Made by a program: the position numbers and the translations under genes. From Anaerolineae bacterium (lineage in GTDB: Bacteria; Chloroflexota; Anaerolineae; Aggregatilineales; Phototrophicaceae): a stretch of 64,000 nucleotides of DNA. Shown here one piece after another: positions 22,725-57,287 of this stretch. Location: the NCBI GenBank assembly GCA_022826865.1, contig JAJDUC010000079.1, positions 1-64,000 on the forward strand. The letters are read 5' to 3'. A model generated the notes under the pieces. It saw only the letters and a program-made list of their open reading frames with translations, had not been told where the DNA came from and searched no databases. Numbering within the stretch: position 1 is the first letter of the stretch; every line of letters starts with the position of its first letter.

Positions 22725-22753
22725 TTGAAAAGGCCTCAGCAATTCGCTAGAAT
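22725..22753 (+). promoter_or_regulatory. Predicted sigma70-type promoter of the cytochrome oxidase operon
   Basis: TTGAAA (22725-22730), a 17 bp spacer and TAGAAT (22748-22753): one mismatch from consensus in each hexamer and ideal spacing. Transcription would start near 22760, giving a leader of about 125 bases before the coxB ATG. Confidence 0.72.
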
Positions 22754-22770
22754 TGTGACAAATTTAACAA
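22753..22770 (+). promoter_or_regulatory. CRP/FNR-like inverted repeat over the coxB transcription start
   Basis: TTGTGACAAATTTAACAA reads as TTGTGA-N6-TAACAA, one base from a perfect dyad of the TTGTGA/TCACAA kind bound by CRP/FNR-family regulators. It covers the predicted start site, a position that would suit repression. This is inference from pattern only. Confidence 0.4.
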
Positions 22771-22886: not shown

Positions 22887-24215
22887 ATGGATAACAGTCG
22901 TTCAAATATCCCGTCGATAAGCCCGGCTGCTGTCGTTGTAACCGCTGTGTTTCTGCTCGTCAGCATTATCGGCGTCAACTGGTTTACGACCTTTGTTCCC
23001 CTTGTGCTGCCGCCGCAGGCTTCGGCTGAATCCAAGAGCGTTGACGAGCTCTTCTACATCTTGATGATCATCGGTGGCGTGGTTTTCTTTTTGATACAGG
23101 GCATGCTGCTGATTTCTGTGTTGTTTTTCCGCGCCCGCGACGGCGATCTTGGCGATGGGCCGACCTATCACGGCAACCCGCTGCTGGAGATCGTCTGGAC
23201 GATCATTCCGGCGCTGGTGATCGTCTTTCTGGCTGTGGTCAGCTATAACATCTGGACCCAGAACTCCGAGCCAAAAGCGGCTGTCAATATGATCGACGGC
23301 GAAGAGACCAAGATCAAGGTCACAGGCGCCCGCTATGCCTGGACGCATACCTATGAGACGAATCGCCTGGATGCGGACGGCGACCCGATCGTTATCAACA
23401 GCGGCGACAAGCTCCATACCTATATCGGCCAAAATGTCGACTTGGAATTGCGCACGCAAGATGTCATTCATTCTTATTGGGTGCCGGCGATGCGCGTCAA
23501 ACAGGACTTGCTGCCCGGCAATCCGGATTTTGGCGGTCGACCAACCGACATCCGTTTCACGCCCATTCGCGTCGAAGGCGCGGCATACCCGGCCGAATAT
23601 CCAATCGTCTGCGCCGAGCTCTGCGGCGATGGCCACGGTCGCATGCGCGGCACGGTTGTCGTCCACGAAGACGAGAGCCAATTCCTGGCGCAGTTTTTCG
23701 AGCCGGCCATCTACGCCATTCTCAACCCGCCGGCCGACCCGGTCTTGCGCGGAGAGATTGTCATTCAAGAGTACATCTGCAACAGTTGCCACACCCTGGA
23801 CAGTCTGGAATGGAGCAGCCGCACCGGACCCTCGCTCAACGGCATAGCCGAGCGCGCCGGCGAGCGCGTCGCCGGCCAATCGGCTGAGGAATACATTGCC
23901 ATCTCGGTTTGGAATGCGCCGGCTTTCGTTGTCCCCGGCTATACCGAGCAGATGGCAGTTTTCGGCCCCGATCAGACGGACGCCAACCACATGACCGCGG
24001 AAGAACTCTATTCGATTGTCGCCTTCCTCTGCACCCAAGGCGAACAATCCGATTGTGATTTGGAGAATCTGACCGAGGCGATACCGCAGGCGATCAAGAC
24101 CGCCTTCGGTCTTGAAGTTGATATCAGCTTCGGGCAAGACGACGCCGAGGCTTCCCAACCGGAGGCCGCAGCCGACGGGAGCGACGAGAGCGAAGCGGAC
24201 AGCGAATCCGACTGA
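22887..24215 (+). CDS. coxB: Cytochrome c oxidase subunit II with fused cytochrome c domain
   Basis: 442 residues. Three hydrophobic N-terminal segments (about 15-40, 55-80, 99-122) precede the periplasmic cupredoxin domain. Its CuA site shows His194 in HSYWVPAMRVKQDLLPG and CAELCGDGHGRM (about 242-253). A class I cytochrome c domain follows with CNSCH (about 298-302) binding haem c. Electrons would pass from this haem through CuA to subunit I. The acidic Ser/Glu/Asp C-terminus is disordered-looking. First gene of the oxidase operon. Confidence 0.95.
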   Translation: MDNSRSNIPSISPAAVVVTAVFLLVSIIGVNWFTTFVPLVLPPQASAESKSVDELFYILMIIGGVVFFLIQGMLLISVLFFRARDGDLGDGPTYHGNPLLEIVWTIIPALVIVFLAVVSYNIWTQNSEPKAAVNMIDGEETKIKVTGARYAWTHTYETNRLDADGDPIVINSGDKLHTYIGQNVDLELRTQDVIHSYWVPAMRVKQDLLPGNPDFGGRPTDIRFTPIRVEGAAYPAEYPIVCAELCGDGHGRMRGTVVVHEDESQFLAQFFEPAIYAILNPPADPVLRGEIVIQEYICNSCHTLDSLEWSSRTGPSLNGIAERAGERVAGQSAEEYIAISVWNAPAFVVPGYTEQMAVFGPDQTDANHMTAEELYSIVAFLCTQGEQSDCDLENLTEAIPQAIKTAFGLEVDISFGQDDAEASQPEAAADGSDESEADSESD

Positions 24216-24276: not shown

Positions 24277-25968
24277 ATGGCAACCATTGCCGTCCCCTTG
24301 GGGGCACAGGAGCAAGGTCAAGCAGCGGAAGCGGTTCAGCGCCCGGCACTAAGCGAATACTTGCGCTGGAGCGTCGATCACAAAATCATCGGCGTGCAAT
24401 ACGGCGTTGCCTCCTTCCTCTTCTTTCTCATCGGCGGCGCAATGGCCATGGGCATTCGCCTGGAGCTGTGGACGCCGGACCTCGACCTGATGGTTTCTGG
24501 CGCCGCCTACAATAGCCTCTTCACCTTCCACGGCACCATTATGATATTCCTGTTTATCATCCCGATGTGGGCGGCCGTCGGCAATTTTGTCGTGCCGCTG
24601 CAGCTCGGGGCCAAAGACATGGCCTTTCCCTGGCTGAATGCATTCGCCTTCTGGTTAATTCCGCCGGCGGCGGTGGTCGTGCTGCTGGGATACTTCGTCA
24701 GCCCGGCGGAAGCGGGCTGGACCTCTTACCCGCCCCTGTCCACCCTGTTCAGCGGCGACGGACAGACGCTTTGGGCGCTGGGCGCGCACCTGCTTGGCAT
24801 CTCGTCGATCATGGGCTCAATCAACTTCATTGTGACCATCCTCAACATGCGGCCGCCACAGATGACGCTCTGGCGTATGCCGCTGCTTTGCTGGGCGGTT
24901 TTGGCGACCAGCATCATCGCTGTCATGGCGACGCCGTTCCTGGCGGGCGCCTTGACCCTGCTGCTGCTGGATCGCGTTGCGGGAACCACCTTCTTTGACG
25001 CGGCGGGCGGCGGCGACGTGCTGCTCTGGCAGAATATATTCTGGTTCTACAGCCACCCGGCGGTCTATATCATGGTGCTGCCGGGCATGGGCGTGCTCTC
25101 GGAAGTGCTGTCGGTCCACAGCCGCAAGCCGGTCTTCGGTTATCGCATGGTCGGCTTGTCCAGCATGGGCATTGCCTTTGTCGGCTTCACCGTCTGGGCG
25201 CATCACATGTTCACCAGCTTGCAGCCGGAATTGCGCATCCCCTTCATGATTACAACGATGATCATCGCCGTGCCCACCGGCATCAAGATGTTCAGCTGGC
25301 TGGGAACGATCTGGGGCGGCAAGATCCATTTCACCAGCGCCATGCTCTTTGGGCTTGGCTTCATGTCCATGTTCGTCATCGGCGGCATTACAGGCGTCAT
25401 GCTGGCCGCCTTGCCCTTCGATATTCACGTCCACGATACCTATTTCGTCGTCAGCCACTTCCACTTTGTGCTCTTCGGCGGGAGTGTCTTCGCCATTTAC
25501 GCCGCGCTTTATCACTGGTTCCCGAAGGTAACCGGACGCATGATGAACGAGCGCCTGGGCCGGATCCATTTCGCCTTTACCTATTTCGGTTTCCTCTTCA
25601 CATTTTTCCCGATGCACATTGTCGGCATGCTGGGCATGCCGCGGCGCGTGGCCGTGTATGTGCCCGAATTCCAACCCTGGAATCAACTGATCAGCTTTTC
25701 CGCCTTCGTTCTGGGCTTTTCAACTTTTATCGTGATTTACAACGTCATCAAGTCCTATTATCACGGGCCCATCGCCGGGGCCAATCCCTGGCGCGCCTTG
25801 ACCCTGGAATGGGCTACCACATCGCCGCCGCCTGTGACCAACTTCGTCGACGATCCGATTCCCTTTGAAGACCCCTACGGCTACGGCACGGAAGCGGCTG
25901 CCGCCTATGTCGAAGCTGTTGAGGCGGCTTTCAGTCCCGGCGGCTCCGCCGCAAGAACGGAGCGCTGA
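24277..25968 (+). CDS. coxA: Cytochrome c oxidase subunit I
   Basis: 563 residues, polytopic catalytic subunit carrying low-spin haem and the haem-CuB centre that reduces O2 and pumps protons. Key motifs are YNSLFTFHGTIMIFLFIIPM (haem ligand His), WFYSHPAVYIMVLPGMG (CuB His and crosslinked Tyr), VWAHHMFTSL (two CuB His) and DTYFVVSHFHFVLFGG (haem ligands). The Tyr in the HPAVY motif supports the A family. It begins 61 bp after coxB. Confidence 0.97.
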   Translation: MATIAVPLGAQEQGQAAEAVQRPALSEYLRWSVDHKIIGVQYGVASFLFFLIGGAMAMGIRLELWTPDLDLMVSGAAYNSLFTFHGTIMIFLFIIPMWAAVGNFVVPLQLGAKDMAFPWLNAFAFWLIPPAAVVVLLGYFVSPAEAGWTSYPPLSTLFSGDGQTLWALGAHLLGISSIMGSINFIVTILNMRPPQMTLWRMPLLCWAVLATSIIAVMATPFLAGALTLLLLDRVAGTTFFDAAGGGDVLLWQNIFWFYSHPAVYIMVLPGMGVLSEVLSVHSRKPVFGYRMVGLSSMGIAFVGFTVWAHHMFTSLQPELRIPFMITTMIIAVPTGIKMFSWLGTIWGGKIHFTSAMLFGLGFMSMFVIGGITGVMLAALPFDIHVHDTYFVVSHFHFVLFGGSVFAIYAALYHWFPKVTGRMMNERLGRIHFAFTYFGFLFTFFPMHIVGMLGMPRRVAVYVPEFQPWNQLISFSAFVLGFSTFIVIYNVIKSYYHGPIAGANPWRALTLEWATTSPPPVTNFVDDPIPFEDPYGYGTEAAAAYVEAVEAAFSPGGSAARTER

Positions 25969-26011: not shown

Positions 26012-26623
26012 ATGACCAGTTACGTTGAGCGGCGGGTAAAGCCAAAACTCAGCCTCGATCGCGATGCCGAGTTGCGCCTGAAGAACAATCGTCTCGGCAT
26101 GAATATTTTCCAGGCGAGTTGGATCATGGTGTTTTTCGCGATGATTGTCGTGAACTGGCAGTTGCGCTACAGTTACGCCCAGTGGCCGCCGGCGGGCGTG
26201 ACGCCTTTTGACCCGCTTCTGCCCAGCATCGCGACGCTGGCGCTGCTATTGAGTTCGGTATTGGTCCGGCGCGGCAGACAGTCTTTGCAGGCGGACGAGG
26301 TCAGCGGCTTCCTGGCATGCTGGCGCCTGGCGATGGCGCTCGGCGTCGCCTTTATGGCGATCATCATTTATGAATTTGCAACGGTTTCGCAGGCGGCTCT
26401 GGCGACACAATACGGGGCCACCATGCGGCTGATGACCGGTTTTCATTTTGTGCATGCGCTGGCGATTCTGGCTGTTATGCTATGGGTATACCGCGCAGGC
26501 CTGAACGACATGCGCAGTGGCAGGCCCTATAATTCCTGGGCGGTTGAAGGGACGGCCAAGCTCTGGTATTTCGTAAGCTTCGCCTGGATTCTTTTCTACC
26601 TCGTGCTTTACTGGATCCGTTGA
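26012..26623 (+). CDS. Divergent cytochrome c oxidase subunit III-like membrane protein
   Basis: 203 residues with about five membrane spans. TGFHFVHALAILAVMLWVY and AKLWYFVSFAWILFYLVLYWI resemble the subunit III signatures (TGxHxxHV and YWHFVDxVW), but most conserved polar residues are replaced. A canonical subunit III gene is further downstream in the same cluster, so this is probably a second, degenerate subunit III-family protein or an accessory subunit. It is 43 bp after coxA and clearly in the operon. Inference from motif resemblance only. Confidence 0.7.
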   Translation: MTSYVERRVKPKLSLDRDAELRLKNNRLGMNIFQASWIMVFFAMIVVNWQLRYSYAQWPPAGVTPFDPLLPSIATLALLLSSVLVRRGRQSLQADEVSGFLACWRLAMALGVAFMAIIIYEFATVSQAALATQYGATMRLMTGFHFVHALAILAVMLWVYRAGLNDMRSGRPYNSWAVEGTAKLWYFVSFAWILFYLVLYWIR

Positions 26624-26633
26624 GGAAAGCGAC

Positions 26634-26708
26634 TTGAACGCCAAGGAAATCGAACAAACGCGGCGCGCGGCAGGCCTATGGGCTAAGGGAGTGGCAAGAC
26701 ATGGATAA
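26634..26708 (+). CDS. Possible 24-residue leader or coupled peptide
   Basis: TTG-initiated ORF of 24 codons (MNAKEIEQTRRAAGLWAKGV...) with GAGGAAAG six bases upstream. It overlaps the start of the next gene (ATGGATAA), a layout that favours translational coupling. It is too short for coding statistics and may be spurious. Confidence 0.2.
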   Translation: MNAKEIEQTRRAAGLWAKGVARHG

Positions 26709-27711
26709 ACCCGGACTCTCCAGGGCGATCCCGGCTCTCATTGTGGGCTTCATCGCGTCGCTCGCCTTCGTTTACGCCGTGCGAACGCTGCAAAATATGG
26801 AACCGGTTTGGATGAATGCCGAAACCAGCGAAGGCGCGCAGGTCGGCCTGGTGCTGGCGGCTTTTGTCTGCATGGGCGCCTTCATGTGGGGAGTCGGCGC
26901 CTTTGACCCCAAGATGAGCGAGCATGGGGAACACGCCGAGGAACATGAAGACGAATCGCCCGAAACAGACTTCTCTCTGCGCAGCAGCGGCCCTGTCTTC
27001 CGCTTAGGAAAATGGCTCTGGGACGCGGCCTGGACGATCATCAACGATACTCCAAAGGCTTGGCGCTTTCCCTATTGGCATGTCAGCTTCTTCCTGATCA
27101 ACTGGGTGGTGAACATCATCTGGTTCATCGTCTGGTTCGCTATTCCCTTCCTCGCCTGGCGCATCTTTTTGATTACTTTCGCTGGCATCCCGGGCACGCT
27201 GGGCGTGCTGCTCATGAGCATTTCCTGCCTTTGGCAGATGATTTCTTTCTATGCCGGTCAACTCTTCCTGGTGTTGACAATCGCCGTCATCGTCACCATC
27301 GTGCTCTTCACGTTTGCGCTTCTGCCGCATGGCTTGGGCTTGCAAATTTCGACCGAGCCAAACGCTGATTTTTTCGCCAATGGCTTCGGCGATTTTGTCA
27401 TCCCCATACAAGATATCCTCGGTTTGGTCCTGCCGCCGGATGATTTCGCCAATGATACGATTGCAGGCACGAGCCAGTTCACGGTGCTGTTGGGATTCAT
27501 TTTGATCATATTTGTCTCGCTCGCGCTCGCGGCCGGCGGAATTGCCATCTTCTTTTATCTTGCGCATCGCGGCGTGAGTGAAGTGAAAGAATTTGAAGCG
27601 ACCGATGGCGAGCGCACGCAGATCTTGCCCATCCGTGAAGCGGGCAAAATTGCGGGCGGCGTCGCCAATTTCATTCGCGCCATCCCGCGCGCGATCGGCT
27701 ATGAGAAGTAA
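26701..27711 (+). CDS. Unknown polytopic membrane protein of the oxidase cluster
   Basis: 336 residues, no family recognised. It has two N-terminal spans (about 8-27 and 43-62), a His/Glu-rich cytoplasmic or periplasmic loop HGEHAEEHEDESPETDFS (about 80-97), then about four spans from 120 to 210, an amphipathic region (HGLGLQISTEPNADFFANGF), a further strong span (about 262-290) and a basic tail. The His/Glu cluster could bind a metal, but that is speculation. Its place between oxidase genes suggests a subunit, assembly factor or copper-handling protein. Confidence 0.75.
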   Translation: MDKPGLSRAIPALIVGFIASLAFVYAVRTLQNMEPVWMNAETSEGAQVGLVLAAFVCMGAFMWGVGAFDPKMSEHGEHAEEHEDESPETDFSLRSSGPVFRLGKWLWDAAWTIINDTPKAWRFPYWHVSFFLINWVVNIIWFIVWFAIPFLAWRIFLITFAGIPGTLGVLLMSISCLWQMISFYAGQLFLVLTIAVIVTIVLFTFALLPHGLGLQISTEPNADFFANGFGDFVIPIQDILGLVLPPDDFANDTIAGTSQFTVLLGFILIIFVSLALAAGGIAIFFYLAHRGVSEVKEFEATDGERTQILPIREAGKIAGGVANFIRAIPRAIGYEK

Positions 27712-27726
27712 GTTAGCACAGGAGAA

Positions 27727-28578
27727 ATGAACTTGACCGATCATACCCCATATCGAGAATTTACAATACGACTCAAACTTCTTATCAGTAAACACCCGAA
27801 TCTCATCACCACGACTCTGAGCAACATATTTACTATGCGATTAATTGGAAATAAGACGCATGGCGATCTTGCTGAGATAGCTATTCCAGAATTCATTAAT
27901 CAGTATATGTATGACTTTAAGTCTACTCATGTTGGTAAAGACAGATTTCGCGCCAAGAAGCACGAAGAAGATATCTCTGTCGTAAATCAGATCACTGAGG
28001 ATGAAGTGCTCATCAGCATTAAAGCCTACGGTGTAGGTCCACTTCAGTTATCTACAGACAAAGAGGCGCGTATGTTTCCGTACATGGAATCACAGGGCGA
28101 AGCTGAAATCAACGATTCTAATCGTATTCGCGCAATTCTGGAGTCGCCAGCCTTTTCAGAAATTGAACAGATGAATGTCCTCCCTCTAATATATGATGAG
28201 AAGAAGAACAGGTGCAACATATTAGTGTTCGATTCAGAACAGGCTAAGCAAGATGTTGCAACTATTAGAAAGGTTACAGGTGGGCGCGGCAGAAAGCATC
28301 CTATCTACGAATTTCTAAATGAAAACAACGAGTACATCTGCGAGGTGAGATATGGGGGTGCAGCTGCTAATGCCCTTCAACGCGGCTTGTGGACGAATAC
28401 GCGAAACGCCATCCAGTATTTCGACAGCATTACCGGTGGTTGGATCGACTATTCTCATAACTTGATCCTAGTAAAGCTGTTCTCGCATGCTCTTGTGGCT
28501 TCAAAGAGAGGACATGTTGAGGCACTGGAAAGTGTGAAAAGGGATATAGCAACCTTAATTCAAGGTGAGGGATTGTGA
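27727..28578 (+). CDS. Putative type II restriction endonuclease
   Basis: 283 residues, visibly more AT-rich than its neighbours. Identity rests mainly on context: it overlaps by 4 bp (GTGA) a D12-class adenine methyltransferase gene. In the protein, HGDLAEIAIPEFINQYMYDF followed by EEDISVVNQITEDEVLISIKAYG offers acidic residues and an xIK motif consistent with a PD-(D/E)xK nuclease core, although the exact catalytic triad is uncertain. The GGRGRKHPIYEF loop is a candidate DNA-contact region. The ATG follows GGAGA, 15 bp after the previous oxidase-cluster gene. Recognition site unknown. Confidence 0.7.
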   Translation: MNLTDHTPYREFTIRLKLLISKHPNLITTTLSNIFTMRLIGNKTHGDLAEIAIPEFINQYMYDFKSTHVGKDRFRAKKHEEDISVVNQITEDEVLISIKAYGVGPLQLSTDKEARMFPYMESQGEAEINDSNRIRAILESPAFSEIEQMNVLPLIYDEKKNRCNILVFDSEQAKQDVATIRKVTGGRGRKHPIYEFLNENNEYICEVRYGGAAANALQRGLWTNTRNAIQYFDSITGGWIDYSHNLILVKLFSHALVASKRGHVEALESVKRDIATLIQGEGL

Positions 28579-29711
28579 ATCAACCACAGCTTCAGCTCGG
28601 ACTGTTTTCTGATGAAAAGCCCCAGTCAGCAAACACCGAAGGAATCAAATACATCGGTTCCAAAATGCTAATGATTCCATACATATTGGACGTTGCGCGA
28701 AGGACTAACGCCCGAACAGTATTGGATGGGTTCTCGGGTAGTACACGTGTTTCTCAGGCATTTGCCCAGAGTGGCTACGATGTTATTTCTTCTGACATTT
28801 CTGCATGGTCGGAAGTTTTCGCTACATGCTATTTGAGACCAAAGCGCGACTGGCAATTGGCGGAACTTATTGAGGAACTTAATAGCACCTCCCCGATCGA
28901 CGGATGGTTCACCGAGCACTATGGTGGAGACGTCAAGGAATCAGGGATCGTCGAAAACAAGAAGCCTTGGCAAAGGCACAACACTAGAAAACTAGATGCC
29001 ATTCGAGAAGCAATTGACGAAATGTCTCTTTCCGAAATAGAAAAATCAGTGGCGATAACTAGCTTAATTTTGGCGCTTGATAAAGTAGATAGTACATTAG
29101 GACACTTTGCCTCATATCTAAAGGAATGGTCTCCACGTTCATACAAGAGTCTTCAACTCAAGGAGCCCATGTTTATTGAAACCACCGGGAGTCACGAGGT
29201 TCGCCGTGGTGACATTTTCCAGGTCTTAGACGACGTACCTGAAGTTGATCTGGCATATTTCGATCCACCCTATGGTTCAAACAACGAGAAGATGCCGCCG
29301 TCTAGAGTACGCTACGCAGCCTATTATCACATTTGGACAACGGTATGTCTCAACGACAAGCCAAGACTGTTCGGTAAAGCAAAGCGTAGAGTCGATACGC
29401 GTGATAAAGTCGCAGCGTCAGTATTTGAGGATTTTCGACGTAGCTTTAGTGGGCGGTTTCGTGCCGTCGAGGCTATCGATAGACTGGTACGCACTGTCCG
29501 CGCCAAGTATGTTCTGTTGTCTTATAGTTCCGGCGGCCGTGCAACTTCCAGTGAACTTGTAGAGGTGTTGAAGCGAGTGGGGGAGATCAAAGAAATTATT
29601 GAAATAGAGCACAAGAGAAATGTAATGTCTGGTATGCGCTGGACTAACAAATGGATTCGACCAAAAGAAGGTAAGAACTTCGAATATCTATTCTTAGTTG
29701 AAAAGCACTAA
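28575..29711 (+). CDS. DNA adenine methyltransferase (D12 class), type II R-M partner
   Basis: 378 residues, starting at a GTG that overlaps the endonuclease stop. AdoMet-binding YIGSKMLMIPYI and VLDGFSGSTRVSQAFAQSGY (motif I) come first, followed after a long middle region by catalytic motif IV DLAYFDPPYGSNN. The order I-TRD-IV fits alpha-class N6-adenine methylases of the Dam/D12 family. It would protect host DNA from the adjacent endonuclease. The pair is AT-rich and sits inside the oxidase operon, a strong sign of horizontal insertion. Confidence 0.88.
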   Translation: MNQPQLQLGLFSDEKPQSANTEGIKYIGSKMLMIPYILDVARRTNARTVLDGFSGSTRVSQAFAQSGYDVISSDISAWSEVFATCYLRPKRDWQLAELIEELNSTSPIDGWFTEHYGGDVKESGIVENKKPWQRHNTRKLDAIREAIDEMSLSEIEKSVAITSLILALDKVDSTLGHFASYLKEWSPRSYKSLQLKEPMFIETTGSHEVRRGDIFQVLDDVPEVDLAYFDPPYGSNNEKMPPSRVRYAAYYHIWTTVCLNDKPRLFGKAKRRVDTRDKVAASVFEDFRRSFSGRFRAVEAIDRLVRTVRAKYVLLSYSSGGRATSSELVEVLKRVGEIKEIIEIEHKRNVMSGMRWTNKWIRPKEGKNFEYLFLVEKH

Positions 29712-29737
29712 TTGAGAAAAAAGGCGAGAAACCCGGT

Positions 29738-30370
29738 ATGGCGGAATTGACAGCGAACCAGCTCGGCGCAGCGGCTCATGACGACAATGGGCACCTCAGC
29801 GAAGAAGAGAAGAACGAAAACCTCAAGCTCGGTGTCTGGCTGTATCTGGCGTCCGAGATCGTGATTTTCTCCATCATGATCGTGGGTTATATCATTCTGC
29901 GCATTAACGAGCCGGCGGTGGTGGAACAGGCGCATGAGCAACTCGGGGTCGGTTTGGTGACAGCCAATACTTTTGTATTGCTCGCAAGCAGCTTTTTTAT
30001 GGTGATGGGCTTGCGCGCCATGCAGGGGGGCAATCGGGCCGGCATGCTGCGCTGGATCGGGCTGACCGCAGTCGGCGGAACCGTCTTCCTCATTGGGCAA
30101 TATATCGAATACAGCGAACTGGCCCACTTGGGCATCATCCTTGGCTACACCGATTCCCAATGGAGCACGCTGGGCATGCGCTTTTACGCGCCGACCTTCT
30201 TCCACGGCGCGCACGTCTTTGTCGGTGTGATTTGGGCGCTGGAAGTCCTGCGCCGCGGCGCCAAGGGCCGTTATGACCATAACCCAATCGGCATTGAAAT
30301 GTTCGGCCTCTACTGGCACTTCGTCGATGTGGTCTGGATCATGCTGTTCACCCTGATTTATCTGGTATAG
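29738..30370 (+). CDS. coxC: Cytochrome c oxidase subunit III
   Basis: 210 residues with five spans. Signatures include KLGVWLYLASEIVIFSIMIV (start of the conserved core with the membrane Glu), FYAPTFFHGAHVFVGVIWAL and MFGLYWHFVDVVWIMLFTLIYL, all typical of bacterial subunit III. It stabilises subunit I and its proton uptake. It follows the methyltransferase by 26 bp; without the R-M pair it would directly follow the unknown membrane protein. Confidence 0.95.
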   Translation: MAELTANQLGAAAHDDNGHLSEEEKNENLKLGVWLYLASEIVIFSIMIVGYIILRINEPAVVEQAHEQLGVGLVTANTFVLLASSFFMVMGLRAMQGGNRAGMLRWIGLTAVGGTVFLIGQYIEYSELAHLGIILGYTDSQWSTLGMRFYAPTFFHGAHVFVGVIWALEVLRRGAKGRYDHNPIGIEMFGLYWHFVDVVWIMLFTLIYLV

Positions 30371-30381
30371 GAGCGCGCGGG

Positions 30382-30762
30382 ATGGCGGAAGCGACACATC
30401 ACGAAGACGGACAGCACAGCAACACCGTCCGACTGCTCGGTTTTGAAATCACGGTTGAAGGCGGCATCTACACCGTCGTCTTCGGCGGCCTGGCCATCTT
30501 GACGGTGATCGAGGTCCTCAGCGCCGAATATCTCAAAGAGGCGATCCACAATGCCCCGGAGGCGGCGGCGACGCTGCAAGCTATCAAAGCGATACTGCTG
30601 CTTGGCATTGCCATCATCAAATCCTGCCTGGTGATTTGGTTCTACATGCATCTGCGCGATGAAAAGCGGGTGCTGGCCGTCGTGCTGCTCCTGCCCCTCC
30701 TGATCGCCAGCTTGTCAATCATGTATCTGCTGGCTATCCCGCCGATTGGCTACGGCGTCTGA
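30382..30762 (+). CDS. coxD: Cytochrome c oxidase subunit IV (prokaryotic type)
   Basis: 126 residues with three hydrophobic spans: GIYTVVFGGLAILTVIEVLS, AILLLGIAIIKSCLVIWFYMHL and VLAVVLLLPLLIASLSIMYLLA. The KSCLVIWFYMHLRDEKR segment matches the conserved 'K..lv..fFMHL' motif of CyoD/CoxD-type subunits. Small accessory subunit, last gene of the oxidase operon, 11 bp after coxC. Confidence 0.9.
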   Translation: MAEATHHEDGQHSNTVRLLGFEITVEGGIYTVVFGGLAILTVIEVLSAEYLKEAIHNAPEAAATLQAIKAILLLGIAIIKSCLVIWFYMHLRDEKRVLAVVLLLPLLIASLSIMYLLAIPPIGYGV

Positions 30763-30849
30763 CCAATTGCCCGCCCGCCGCATGGATGACAAATCAGGCC
30801 GAGCATGAGATACAATGCCTTCAAGTACGCTGACGGAGTGGCTTCGTCC

Positions 30850-31431
30850 ATGATTGTCGAGAAGCAGATCTACACAATCGATGATGTTAGGGAACTGGCG
30901 CAAGATCCCGCCAATGACAATGTGTTGTTCGAACTCATTGATGGAGAATTGTTCCGCATGACGCGCCCAAACCGACAACATGGTCTTCTGGCATCCGAGA
31001 TTGCGTTTTTTCTAAGGTCTTTCACAAGACAGATTGAAATTGGCGAGGTTGTAGTAGAATCAGGGCACCATCCGCCCGATTACCGCTACACCTTGCTGGG
31101 ACCGGATGTCGCCTTCACACGCTATGAAAGGATCCCCGATTCAAAGTCGGACGATTTCTATCCCGTCATGCCCGATCTGGCGGTTGAGGTCCTTTCTCCG
31201 AGCGAGAGCCTGAATAAGGCGCGCCAGAAAGCTGAAGTCTACCTGCGCAACGGAACGAGCCTGGTATGGCTGGTCCAGCCGGACAAGCTGGGTGTTGAAG
31301 TATGCCGCCTTATTGACGGTTCCCAATTGCAAATCGAATTTGTCAGCCACGATGGCAGCTTGAGCGGCGGGGCTGTCTTGCCCGGATTCGAGCTGAGCGT
31401 CAAGCAGATTTTCGCCGTCCTGCCCTCATAA
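30850..31431 (+). CDS. Uma2 family (DUF820) putative endonuclease
   Basis: About 193 residues. The PD-(D/E)xK-like core typical of Uma2 proteins is visible: FELIDGELFRMTRPNRQHG, LLGPDVAF, and PDLAVEVLSPSESLNKARQKAEVYLRNG followed by VWLVQPDK. These are abundant in cyanobacteria and Chloroflexota; function is unproven and may involve DNA cleavage. The ATG at 30850 is preferred to the ORF-track start at 30805. A weak ATGACA...TACAAT promoter-like pair lies at 30786-30816. Confidence 0.88.
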   Translation: MIVEKQIYTIDDVRELAQDPANDNVLFELIDGELFRMTRPNRQHGLLASEIAFFLRSFTRQIEIGEVVVESGHHPPDYRYTLLGPDVAFTRYERIPDSKSDDFYPVMPDLAVEVLSPSESLNKARQKAEVYLRNGTSLVWLVQPDKLGVEVCRLIDGSQLQIEFVSHDGSLSGGAVLPGFELSVKQIFAVLPS

Positions 31432-53342: not shown

Positions 53343-54638
53343 CTAGCGCCGCCGCCCATGGCAGCGCTTGAATTTCAAGCCGCTGCCGCAGGGGCAGGGA
53401 TCGTTGCGCCCGGCTGTGGCGAAAGCCCGCTCAAGCTCGGCATCGTAACGCGCCATCTGCAGCATCACATTGGCCGGGGGCCGGCGCCCGGCCAGCTCAG
53501 CCGCCATGAAACTCATCGACGGCCGCGCGTGATTGAAGAAGGCGCGATAACCGGCGCAGAGGTAATTCAAGCCCGGCTCGCCATCCGGCGTCGAAATGAA
53601 GCGGTTCTTTGGGCAGCCGCCGTTGCAGACGAACTTGACTTCGCAATCCAGGCAATATTGCGGCAAGGTATCGCGCTTGTCTTGGCCGAACTTGATCTGC
53701 TCGTCCATGACCACGATCTCGCTCAGCGGCACATCCATGATATTGCCGAGCTTGTAATCGGGCTCGACATAGTGATCGCATGAAAAGACATCGCCGTTAT
53801 GCTCCATCGCCAGCGCCAGGCCGCAGGTCTCATCGAAGATGCAGAGCCCGGGCGGCGCGCCGGTCCAGGCGGCCAGCGCGATATCAAAGATCTGCACGAA
53901 GACCCGGCCGACATCGCGCCGCACCCACTCTTCGTACATATCAATCAGGAATTGCCCGTAACCCGCCGCAGTGATTGAGCGCTCGGTGACGCGATCGCCT
54001 TCTTGATAGCCGGTGTCGTTGTCGCGTTCGACGATGGGGATGAATTGCATGAATTGCGCGCCGACCTCATCGCGCAGGAACTTGTAAACGCGCGCGCCCT
54101 GCCCTTCGTTGGCGGCATGCACCGTGGTCAAAATGTTGTATTCGGCCTCGTGCTTCTGCAGCAGCCGCAGGCCGTCCATGACGCGCTGGAAGGTGGGCTG
54201 GCCGCCCTTGTCGACGCGATAGTAGTCGTGCACATCGCGCGGACCATCGAGACTGACGCCGATGAGGAAATCGTTGCCGGCGAAGAACTCGCACCATTCG
54301 TCATCCAGCGTCACGGCGTTGGTCTGCAGGGCGTTGCTGATGCGCATGCCCGGGCGTCGGTGCTTCTGCTGGTAGCGGACGGCTTGCCGAAAGAACTCGA
54401 CGCCCATGAGGGTCGGCTCGCCGCCTTGCCAGGCGAAGTTGATGTCATTGACCTGCTGCGCCTCGATGTACTGGCGGATGTATTCTTCGAGCAGATTGTC
54501 GGACATGCGGAACTTGCTGCCAGGGTAGAGCGCTTCTTTGGAGAGGAAGTAGCAATACTTGCAATCGAGATTGCAGATGGCGCCTCGCGGCTTGGTCATC
54601 AGGTGGAAGGCGGTGGGGCGTTCTGTCGTGGTTTGCAT
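53343..54638 (-). CDS. Radical SAM/SPASM sulfatase-maturating enzyme (anSME-like) with SEC-C tail
   Basis: 431 residues. Radical SAM cluster motif GAICNLDCKYCYFLSKEALYP (CxxxCxxC), FAWQGGEPTLMGVEFF, and SPASM cysteines in PPGLCIFDETCGLALAMEHNGDVFSCDHYV and PQYCLDCEVKFVCNGGCPKNRF. These match anaerobic sulfatase-maturating enzymes that make formylglycine in sulfatases. The C-terminal [22 protein letters not shown] is a SEC-C zinc motif. No sulfatase gene is in the window, so the target is elsewhere or different. A TATACT element lies 15 bp upstream of the start. Confidence 0.92.
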   Translation of the reverse strand: MQTTTERPTAFHLMTKPRGAICNLDCKYCYFLSKEALYPGSKFRMSDNLLEEYIRQYIEAQQVNDINFAWQGGEPTLMGVEFFRQAVRYQQKHRRPGMRISNALQTNAVTLDDEWCEFFAGNDFLIGVSLDGPRDVHDYYRVDKGGQPTFQRVMDGLRLLQKHEAEYNILTTVHAANEGQGARVYKFLRDEVGAQFMQFIPIVERDNDTGYQEGDRVTERSITAAGYGQFLIDMYEEWVRRDVGRVFVQIFDIALAAWTGAPPGLCIFDETCGLALAMEHNGDVFSCDHYVEPDYKLGNIMDVPLSEIVVMDEQIKFGQDKRDTLPQYCLDCEVKFVCNGGCPKNRFISTPDGEPGLNYLCAGYRAFFNHARPSMSFMAAELAGRRPPANVMLQMARYDAELERAFATAGRNDPCPCGSGLKFKRCHGRRR

Positions 54639-54699
54639 GGAGGGGAGTATAGCTTAATTCGGCGCGGGGGCACACAGGGCAATCGCTGCATATTTTTTT

Positions 54700-54727
54700 A
54701 CCACCGAGTACACCGAGGACACAGAGA
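54700..54727. repeat. accaccgagtacaccgag-type dispersed repeat
   Basis: ACCACCGAGTACACCGAGGA belongs to the short family also seen at 161, 3256 and 55966. Next to it at about 54675 is CAGGGCAATCGC, the end sequence of repeat A without the rest of the element. Confidence 0.45.
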
Positions 54728-54828
54728 GTCGCGTGGACACTGACCGCCGGCACAGAGAAAAGCGGCTTGGGGTTGGGTGTGATAAACTTGGATCAATGCG
54801 ATCAATCTGATGAAATTGGAAGTGCATT

Positions 54829-55905
54829 ATGACGCTTTATGATTCTCTGAGCAAGATTGCCGAACAAATTCAAAGTCAGCGCCATTTGATAACTTCTGAG
54901 CAAGCAACGATACTTGTTTCAATCCAGCCCTTCATCCGCGCATTGGGCTACGATACACAGAATCTGGCCGAGGTTCAGCCGGAGTTTACTGCCGACCCGC
55001 ATTCCAGTGGCACAGAAAGAGTGGATTATGTGATAAAGCGCGATGGCAAGCCAATCATGTTAATTGAGGTGAAATCGGCCAACACAACGCTGAATCAACA
55101 TCATTGGAAACAGCTACACAGCTACTTTGTCTCGCTGGATGTGGAATTCGGCGTACTTACAAATGGCTTGGAGTATCGCTTTTATACCGATACCAAGAAA
55201 AACAATGTCATGGATGAAGAGCCGTTTCTGTCTATTGATATGCTCAGGCTCGACGCAACGGAGATTAGCATTCTCGACGGCTTTAGCAAAACTCGTTTTG
55301 CACCGGCGCAAACGCTACGCAAGATTAAAATTAGCAACTTGCTGGAGAAGGAACTGAATCGACCCTCAGACAACTTCGTCAAGCATTTCGCCAGACAAGT
55401 TCATTCAGGATCAATTTGGCAGACAGTCATTGAGGAATTTAGGCCGCTGGTCAAGCGGGCATGGGATGACTTGGTGGATCAAGAAATTTCTCGCCGCCTG
55501 CGCCGGCCAGATGATGAAGAGGAAGATGGGGAAAATCTAACTCTACCCGATACAGTCAACACGATCCAGAAAGATGAGAAAAATCCATTACCAGAAACAT
55601 CTGCTAAAATCCCAGTTTTTCTGAGATATAAGGGCGAAATCTTAGCTCAGGAAGCGACTCTGACACTCCCGCCAGACATGCATGTATCTTTCAAGAAAGT
55701 CATTCACTTTCAAGGCAAAGACTGGACGATTGGGGGTTCAGCAACGGCAATTATCCATCCCTTAACGGCTCCCGCAAAACCTGCCATGAATGGTCTCGAT
55801 TATTGGCGAGTGATTGATCCGCTTGATGGCAAGGATTGTGGCCTCCGTACGATATGGAAAGATGAAGCATTGGCTGCGCGGCTGTTTGAGAAGTACGCCA
55901 AATGA
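54829..55905 (+). CDS. Stand-alone HsdR_N-type nuclease domain protein with RAMA-like C-terminus
   Basis: 358 residues. The N-terminal half matches the type I restriction enzyme R N-terminal domain: RALGYDTQNLAEVQPEF, then VDYVIKRDGKPIMLIEVKSANTTL with the PD-(D/E)xK residues, and FGVLTNGLEYRFYTD. There is no helicase part. The C-terminal 95 residues (VIHFQGKDWTIGGSATAIIH, PAMNGLDYWRVID) recall RAMA domains, proposed readers of modified DNA. Together this would suit a modification-dependent nuclease or sensor. No hsdM or hsdS gene is adjacent. The C-terminal assignment is weak. Confidence 0.78.
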   Translation: MTLYDSLSKIAEQIQSQRHLITSEQATILVSIQPFIRALGYDTQNLAEVQPEFTADPHSSGTERVDYVIKRDGKPIMLIEVKSANTTLNQHHWKQLHSYFVSLDVEFGVLTNGLEYRFYTDTKKNNVMDEEPFLSIDMLRLDATEISILDGFSKTRFAPAQTLRKIKISNLLEKELNRPSDNFVKHFARQVHSGSIWQTVIEEFRPLVKRAWDDLVDQEISRRLRRPDDEEEDGENLTLPDTVNTIQKDEKNPLPETSAKIPVFLRYKGEILAQEATLTLPPDMHVSFKKVIHFQGKDWTIGGSATAIIHPLTAPAKPAMNGLDYWRVIDPLDGKDCGLRTIWKDEALAARLFEKYAK

Positions 55906-55965
55906 TCACCTCAATCCATGCATGCAACGCAATATCACCTTCACCGCCCGAAACGCCATAACAAA

Positions 55966-56004
55966 TCCTTCGTGACCTTTGTGCCTTCGTGTCTTTGTGG
56001 TCAA
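55966..56004. repeat. Dispersed repeat CCTTCGTGTCTTTGTGGT, reverse orientation
   Basis: TTTGTGCCTTCGTGTCTTTG is the inverse of the accacaaagacacgaag family seen at 161. The clearest member in the window. Confidence 0.55.
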
Positions 56005-56036
56005 CAAAGTCCCCGCGCCCTCTGCCGTGACTTACC

Positions 56037-56078
56037 CTACCGCAGCTTCTCCAGCACAGCCCGCAGAAAAGCCGCGAC
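56037..56078 (-). pseudogene. Remnant of an rluD-like 3' end
   Basis: The minus strand reads AAFLRAVLEKLR and a TAG stop, matching the last residues of the rluD product at 56364 (GLRAVLEKLR). The DNA CTTCTCCAGCACAGCCC is identical in both places. A small ORF and its leader lie between the two copies, so the duplication probably accompanied insertion or a local rearrangement. Confidence 0.55.
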
Positions 56079-56151
56079 ATAATACGTTGCAAATTCAAGC
56101 ATATTACTATAGCATAGGTGTAGCCGCTTACATCATGCTAGGAATACAACA

Positions 56152-56367
56152 ATGAGCGCTCAAGCAACTGAAATGCAAACGAACAATCCTGAACCACTTG
56201 AACAGCGCGTCACAGACCTTGAGCTTCGCGTAGCGAAAATTGAAGACCCTATGCAAGCCATCCTGGAAAATGTCCTTCACATGCGCAAAGTTCAGGACGT
56301 GCAAGGCCAATTGTTGCTAAAGATTGCGGATCATCTCGGAATTGATCCCAATCCATTTCGGTCCTAA
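56152..56367 (+). CDS. Small putative coiled-coil protein
   Basis: 71 residues. LEQRVTDLELRVAKIEDPMQAILENVLHM is strongly helical with heptad spacing; the C-terminus LLLKIADHLGIDPNPF is also helical. No family recognised. It overlaps the rluD stop by 4 bp on the opposite strand. The ATG is not preceded by a strong ribosome binding site. Confidence 0.55.
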   Translation: MSAQATEMQTNNPEPLEQRVTDLELRVAKIEDPMQAILENVLHMRKVQDVQGQLLLKIADHLGIDPNPFRS

Positions 56368-57287
56368 CGCAACTTCTCCAGCACAGCCCTTAAGCCAACC
56401 GGCAGCTCGCTCACGAAGCGCAGCCGCTCGCCACTTACCGGATGCTCAAACGCCAACTCATGCGCGTGCAGAAACTGCCGCTTCATTCGCACCCGCTGCT
56501 TGCGCCTGCCATAGACCGCATCCCCAACCACCGGGCAGCCGATGAAAGCCATATGCACGCGAATCTGATGACTGCGCCCGGTTAGCAGATTCAAGCGCGC
56601 CAGCGCCCGATCGCCCTGAAAGTCATCGTCCAGCACCTCGAATTCAGTCTGCGCTGGCTTGCCGCCGCGCCGTACCGCCATGCGTTTGCGTTGCCGCGGA
56701 TCGCGAGCGATGGGCGCGTCGATGAGACCCATGTTGGAATCCGGACGCTTCTCGAGCAGCGCCAGGTATATTTTCTCCACGGTCCGCGCTTGAAACTGCG
56801 CCATCAAGGCCAGCAGCGCCGGCTTGTTGCGCGCGGCGACCAGCAGGCCGCTCGTGCCGCGATCGAGACGATGGATGATGCCCAAGCGGTCCTGCGTCTC
56901 TGGGTCGTCCATCATGTCCGCCAGCTCGGGATAGCGCGCCAGCAGCGCATTGACGAGGGTGCCGGATGCGTTGCCTGGTCCCGGATGGACCACCATGCCG
57001 GCCGGCTTGTCGATGACGGCCAGACGCGCGTCTTCGTAGACGATATCGAGGGCAATATCTTCCGGCTCGACCGAGGTTTCCGCGCGCGGCGGGATGCTCA
57101 CGCTGACCGCTTCGCCGCCTTTGAACTTGTAGCCGATCTTCCGCGCCTCGCCATCGACAAGCACATGCCCGGAGCGAATGAGCGCTTGCACCTGCGCCCG
57201 CGAGTAGCCGGGCAAATGCGCCAGCAGGAATTTATCAAGCCGCTGCCTGGCTTCGTTGACGCTGAGCCTTAGCGATTGCTCTGGCAC
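56364..57287 (-). CDS. rluD: 23S rRNA pseudouridine synthase, RluD family
   Basis: 307 residues. N-terminal S4 RNA-binding domain (EARQRLDKFLLAHLPGYSRAQVQALIRSGHV), then the catalytic domain with VIDKPAGMVVHPGPGN, the active-site Asp in GIIHRLDRGTSGLLVAARN and RSHQIRVHMAFIGCPVVGD. RluD makes pseudouridines in helix 69 of 23S rRNA; RluA/RluC-type specificity cannot be excluded. Its start overlaps the HNH gene stop by 19 bp. Confidence 0.94.
   Translation of the reverse strand: MPEQSLRLSVNEARQRLDKFLLAHLPGYSRAQVQALIRSGHVLVDGEARKIGYKFKGGEAVSVSIPPRAETSVEPEDIALDIVYEDARLAVIDKPAGMVVHPGPGNASGTLVNALLARYPELADMMDDPETQDRLGIIHRLDRGTSGLLVAARNKPALLALMAQFQARTVEKIYLALLEKRPDSNMGLIDAPIARDPRQRKRMAVRRGGKPAQTEFEVLDDDFQGDRALARLNLLTGRSHQIRVHMAFIGCPVVGDAVYGRRKQRVRMKRQFLHAHELAFEHPVSGERLRFVSELPVGLRAVLEKLR

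Follow-up and report, generated by a model that had tools for sequence, protein, structure and literature searches.

A type II restriction-modification (R-M) pair is located inside the cytochrome oxidase operon of an Anaerolineae bacterium, in the 64,000-nucleotide stretch of contig JAJDUC010000079.1 that was analysed here (the window). The pair is probably a cassette at one fixed docking site, the translation start of coxC, where it has been gained and/or lost recurrently, with parts exchanged between species. All six carrier genomes have the pair at this one site, the remaining genomes of the genus have a clean empty site, the host trees call for at least six changes, the two genes have discordant histories, and the borders are precise.

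The genes run on one strand in the order coxB, coxA, COX3-like gene, membrane gene, endonuclease, methyltransferase, coxC and cox4 (Table 1). The stop codon of the membrane gene at 27711 is followed after a 15-bp gap by the endonuclease ATG at 27727; the endonuclease and methyltransferase genes overlap by GTGA at 28575-28578; and a 26-bp gap (29712-29737) separates the methyltransferase gene from coxC. For the membrane gene (26701-27711), searches of Pfam and NCBIfam gave nothing at E ≤ 0.1. A gene of the Uma2 family, described in Pfam as putative restriction endonuclease, was found 3′ of cox4 at 30805-31431 of the window, and most relatives have one to three Uma2-family copies at the same place.

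Table 1. Positions in the window of the R-M cassette, the surrounding oxidase genes and the upstream sites
Feature	Position	Strand	Basis
Sigma-70-like hexamers TTGAAA-17-TAGAAT, abutting the operator	22725..22753	+	Consensus scan
Rex-like operator, palindrome TTGTGA-N8-ACAA, 5′ of coxB	22753..22770	+	Half-sites invariant in 33/33 genus regions
coxB, oxidase subunit II, cytochrome c-like at its C terminus	22887..24215	+	Pfam COX2_TM, COX2; Cytochrom_C match under its cut-off
coxA, subunit I	24277..25968	+	Pfam COX1 E=7e-155
COX3-like subunit, second copy	26012..26623	+	Pfam COX3 E=3e-17
Membrane-type protein, operon-conserved, left flank of cassette	26701..27711	+	Ortholog directly 5′ of the junction across the genus
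Left leader, serves endonuclease translation	27712..27726	+	Positional counterpart of the coxC leader in empty relatives
Type II restriction endonuclease, 283 aa	27727..28578	+	PADLOC REase_II PDLC03568 E=6e-128
D12-class N6-adenine DNA methyltransferase, 378 aa	28575..29711	+	Pfam PF02086 and PADLOC MTase_II
Right leader of cassette, new coxC translation leader	29712..29737	+	11/16 against the G030 coxC leader; 0.02 of shuffles equal
coxC, subunit III, right flank	29738..30370	+	Pfam COX3 E=3e-17
cox4, prokaryotic subunit IV	30382..30762	+	Pfam COX4_pro E=6e-13

The G + C content is 0.43 for the endonuclease gene and 0.46 for the methyltransferase gene, against 0.56-0.59 for coxB, coxA, the second COX3 gene, the membrane gene, coxC and cox4. 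The difference is larger at fourfold sites, with 0.39 for the R-M pair versus 0.76-0.87 for the neighbouring operon genes. Elsewhere in the window, a second AT-richer stretch extends from 54501 to 56500 (GC 0.47-0.50). The initial annotation had given the same gene limits, overlap, gaps and shared orientation, and had described an AT-rich type II R-M pair inserted into the oxidase operon; all of these points were borne out, the family assignment by the PADLOC matches and the insertion by the comparison with sister genomes given below.

Both proteins match the PADLOC models PDLC03568 and PDLC03342 across nearly their full length, the methyltransferase with E=1e-145 to MTase_II (PDLC03342). The methyltransferase also matches Pfam MethyltransfD12 (PF02086, E=2.7e-20) with 73.6 bits against a cut-off of 22, which places it in class D12. 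With an endonuclease gene next to a DNA methyltransferase gene, both from families that go together, the pair has the make-up of a type II R-M system. For the endonuclease (P0001), Pfam gives no match and the PDB holds no sequence relative. Its AlphaFold2 model, with a pLDDT of 83, was built from the 64 sequences of alignment A1, from which L049, L095 and L102 (stops) and further outside loci had been excluded. The top structural neighbours of the model are restriction endonucleases, the best being NaeI (Z 8.8, 149 aligned residues, rmsd 3.8), followed by SwaI (Z 6.4), SfiI (6.3), HinP1I and MspI in the range 5.9-6.4. The rankings differ on the nearest known endonuclease, which is NaeI by Z-score versus SwaI by Foldseek (E 1.8e-3). 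The model lends modest support to a putative PD-(D/E)XK-type nuclease, and the pair is predicted to be active in both restriction and modification.

To place the pair in its genus, 34 genomes were compared, including that of the window (G000), and 27 more distant genomes were added for the endonuclease search. Of these 61 genomes, 6 have the endonuclease, every one within the genus, and the same 6 of the 34 genus genomes have the methyltransferase at ≥70% identity. Far from being carried by all relatives with matching composition, the pair is thus confined to G000, G001, G006, G008, G011 and G027, and in 6/6 it sits between the membrane gene and coxC and at no other site. The orthologous site is uninterrupted in the other 28 of the 34, as a clean junction with neither gene of the pair. 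In 21 of these 28 empty genomes the coxC ATG lies 17-19 nt from the stop codon of the membrane gene; the other junctions measure about 100 bp in five, 40 in one and, by alignment, 11 in G033. No different gene cassette was found at the junction in the 28 non-carriers, just leaders or ~100-bp spacers, and outside the six pairs the genus has no methyltransferase match above 34% identity.

The ~100-bp junctions of the five empty genomes (L121, L140, L141, L145 and L148) open with a GCCGCTCGGCGGC-type palindrome, as a variant in L145, and a palindrome of this type was also found between coxC and cox4 in L132; a small repeated element may therefore also use the junction of the membrane gene and coxC. 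These junctions were considered as remnants of the pair and rejected as such, given the palindrome at their start and the methyltransferase search above. In G026 the assembly is interrupted precisely where the membrane gene meets coxC, leaving two contigs (L138 1-72 and L154 1-60) that overlap by 55 bases. The break resembles a branch of an assembly graph, and the junction may be variable within the G026 population; the G026 bin has no third contig with the junction sequence.

R-M pairs can move without obvious vectors. No vector was seen here either, since the endonuclease has no match among plasmids, phages or IMG/VR viral contigs. Six viral contigs encode methyltransferases at 41-61% identity, with no endonuclease match in the stretches examined, and methyltransferases occur in 98 plasmid records, each below 60% identity. 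The cassette itself carries no recombinase gene. ComEC-type proteins, below the family cut-off, are encoded in 34/34 genomes, which says little.

Host trees were built from rpoB (33 rows, with the fragment of G024 excluded) and from the cox genes (34 rows). On both trees the carriers are split into six lineages among empty genomes, the fewest presence/absence changes being 6 on the rpoB tree and 6 on the cox tree, and the rpoB data reject the carriers as one clade (AU p=1e-6). Since the carriers belong to six separate lineages, gain and/or loss has been recurrent, and repeated change at this single site is firmly established. Trees of the pair included 68 (endonuclease) and 72 (methyltransferase) of 76 loci from outside the genus, loci with coverage <85% or a stop being dropped; the six pairs formed one clade for both genes, with support 100/99.

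The histories of the two genes disagree within that clade. The endonucleases of G000 and G011 are identical at 76 of 96 fourfold sites, versus 743 of 1317 for the pooled host genes (Fisher p=9e-6). An endonuclease clade of G000, G011 and G027 is rejected by rpoB (AU p=1.6e-4), and the methyltransferase clade of G006 and G011 is rejected by the endonuclease DNA (AU p=4e-7); in the opposite direction, the endonuclease clade is not rejected by the methyltransferase sequences (AU p=0.075). Without G027, the methyltransferase tree is fairly close to the host tree, as expected from vertical descent. The G027 methyltransferase is odd, with 66-67% DNA identity to the others, and the G027 endonuclease has 65-84%. 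Because the two genes differ in history and the G000 and G011 endonucleases are closer than the host genes, parts appear to have moved between species, and on these trees the cassette reads as a mosaic.

These data have to be weighed against a single ancestral insertion followed by vertical descent, many precise losses and some later exchange of endonucleases among carriers. The identical site and the monophyly of the six pairs fit such a history, as do flanks that are species-typical right up to the border and a methyltransferase tree that follows the host tree in part, and 11-14 losses would be enough. It fares less well in likelihood, where, from the common ancestor of the carriers and with equal parameters, loss-only scored below gain-only by 3.7 (cox) or 2.2 (rpoB) log units, and a model with both gain and loss scored above either. 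A first pair of likelihoods (loss-only -39.6 versus gain-only -19.8) was set aside because the gap had been inflated by a root on the long outgroup branch; with the smaller gap after re-rooting, the case against a single origin followed by loss is mild. Composition also speaks against such a history, the fourfold GC of the pair being 0.26-0.48 versus 0.76-0.94 for the hosts in all six carriers, an argument tempered by 69 of 71 loci outside the genus, where the family is likewise lower in GC than its flanks. We regard one ancestral insertion as unlikely, though it is the alternative that survives best.

G011 is identical to its empty sister G010 up to the ATG, and the 100-bp windows just outside the borders are 98% (left) and 96% (right) identical. 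In G027, G008, G001 and G006, comparison with near sisters at 100-bp resolution likewise showed flanks free of any clear donor tract, a result as compatible with precise loss as with precise gain. Leaders were compared with those of 27 of the 28 empty genomes, G033 being excluded and G026 typed from its contig. In five of the six carriers the left leader matches the coxC leader of an empty relative at 14-16 of 16 positions; that of the window matches empties at just 9/16. On the right side, 12-13 of 16 positions agree between the leaders of G006, G008 and G011 and coxC leaders from other species (shuffle p≤0.004), the G000 leader has a weak likeness to coxC leaders (p=0.02), and that of G001 has none (p=0.58). 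In G027 the right leader is the same as the left leader, within a perfect 30-bp direct repeat found at both borders, and partial repeats of 12 bp and 9 bp were found in G006 and G008. No border repeat is visible in G001 (11/32 aligned positions) or in the window's own copy (10/32, longest common stretch 6 bp), and because of this absence the window's copy is not classed as an insertion with long target duplication. The endonuclease starts with MAE or MAD in three of six carriers, versus 1 of 70 outside sequences, with starts chosen by script; coxC starts with MAE.

A cassette that docks at the coxC start, as we favour, would consist of three parts, the endonuclease gene, the methyltransferase gene that overlaps it and, last, a cox-type leader. 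On entry at the coxC start codon, the coxC leader of the host would turn into the endonuclease leader, and the cassette would bring a replacement leader for coxC, so that with leaders exchanged at the start of coxC the operon would stay whole. The route in and out may be recombination at the short repeated leader-start sequence. A bolder version, in which the cassette would be a minimal mobile unit without recombinase, with the coxC leader and start as its attachment site, interchangeable R and M genes and expression tuned by Rex, is speculative and in our judgement rather improbable. If it were true, restriction would be tuned to the NADH/NAD+ state through Rex, and the swapping of leaders on entry and exit would never break the host operon.

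Three further explanations fare worse. That unrelated R-M pairs were inserted independently at a general hotspot would account for the use of one site by six lineages, but it was rejected because both genes form one clade at 100/99, and the 28 non-carriers have no other gene cassette at the junction; we give it very little credence. Type II R-M pairs can behave as addiction modules, and this capacity, together with the position inside a respiratory operon, underlies the proposal of the initial annotation that the essential operon stabilises the pair, its loss being damaging to respiration. This lock-in did not hold up and is even less credible, as 28 of the 34 genomes are empty with intact-looking, clean junctions and the host trees require at least six changes; gain and/or loss evidently leaves the operon whole, and with scarless change at the site, loss need not hurt respiration. 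An artefact of assembly or binning, conceivable since the genomes are metagenome assemblies, is the least credible of all, given that the pair lies on contiguous contigs in six genomes with mutually different sequences and that the flanks of five of the six carriers are close to an empty sister species.

The region upstream of coxB was scanned in 33 of the 34 genomes, G002 being without coxB on the examined stretch. The initial annotation had noted a possible CRP/FNR-like site there, which is better read as Rex-like: the palindrome is conserved in 33/33 genomes, fitting the Rex consensus (TTGTGAAW4TTCACAA, as given in PMC2883068) at 11-12 of 14 positions, and none of the 33 has an FNR-like site with ≤1 mismatch in the 250 bp before coxB. 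Five upstream regions were shuffled 200 times each; of the 1000 shuffled sequences, 5 reached 11 of 14 positions and none reached 12. A Rex repressor is encoded in G000 (NF003995, E=2e-82; L197 1036-1710, minus strand). The scan for sigma-70 consensus sites is weak, with 8 sites in the region against 5.3 expected. From the gaps and the shared orientation it is plausible that the pair is co-transcribed with the cox genes; the oxidase promoter would then drive both R-M genes, probably with Rex in control.

Outside the genus the pair is widespread, with 76 loci and relatives from many phyla. The order of endonuclease and methyltransferase is the same as here in 75 of the 76, the remaining locus stopping at a contig edge. 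Unlike here, none of the 76 is located in a cox operon, no cox-gene match being found in the examined stretches.

R-M units are described as inserting without a mobility gene, some with variable target duplications of ~100 bp, and individual R and M genes as moving alone (PMC3874152, PMC3031569). Insertion with target duplication is reported from Helicobacter pylori and others (Nobusato et al. 2000 and Furuta et al. 2010, as cited in PMC3874152, PMC3031569 and PMC4978471), and in H. pylori one orthologous locus can host different R-M systems, one of them flanked by a direct repeat (PMC4978471). As in the H. pylori-type insertions of these accounts, the cassette has no mobility gene of its own, occupies orthologous loci in some genomes but not in others and sometimes has direct repeats. 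It differs from those insertions in using one junction of a respiratory operon across six lineages, with the following gene's start codon as border, and its repeat, 30 bp long in one carrier, is degenerate or missing in the rest, against the variable ~100 bp of PMC3874152. PMC4176335 suggests that R-M systems are acquired in small regions, perhaps at hotspots of integration, and depend less on known mobile elements. The uptake of R-M regions as small units is common to both; that account concerns hotspots in general, whereas here a single translation-initiation site serves as the hotspot, and its operon has a conserved Rex-like operator. R-M genes are stated to be abundant in sponge symbionts (PMC5649159), and the present host may have a sponge habitat. 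A literature search of limited reach found no earlier report of an R-M system associated with cytochrome oxidase or with a housekeeping operon. The mobility of R-M systems is already known; the present case stands apart in that one translation start within a respiratory operon has been used repeatedly.

The genus thus offers a natural system for studying the route by which R-M systems move, with presence and absence at one precise site and some sister genomes of >90% identity. Residence in an essential operon need not stabilise an R-M pair, and two ideas that are commonly mixed are hereby separated. The Rex-like operator before the operon would tie the expression of defence to respiration.
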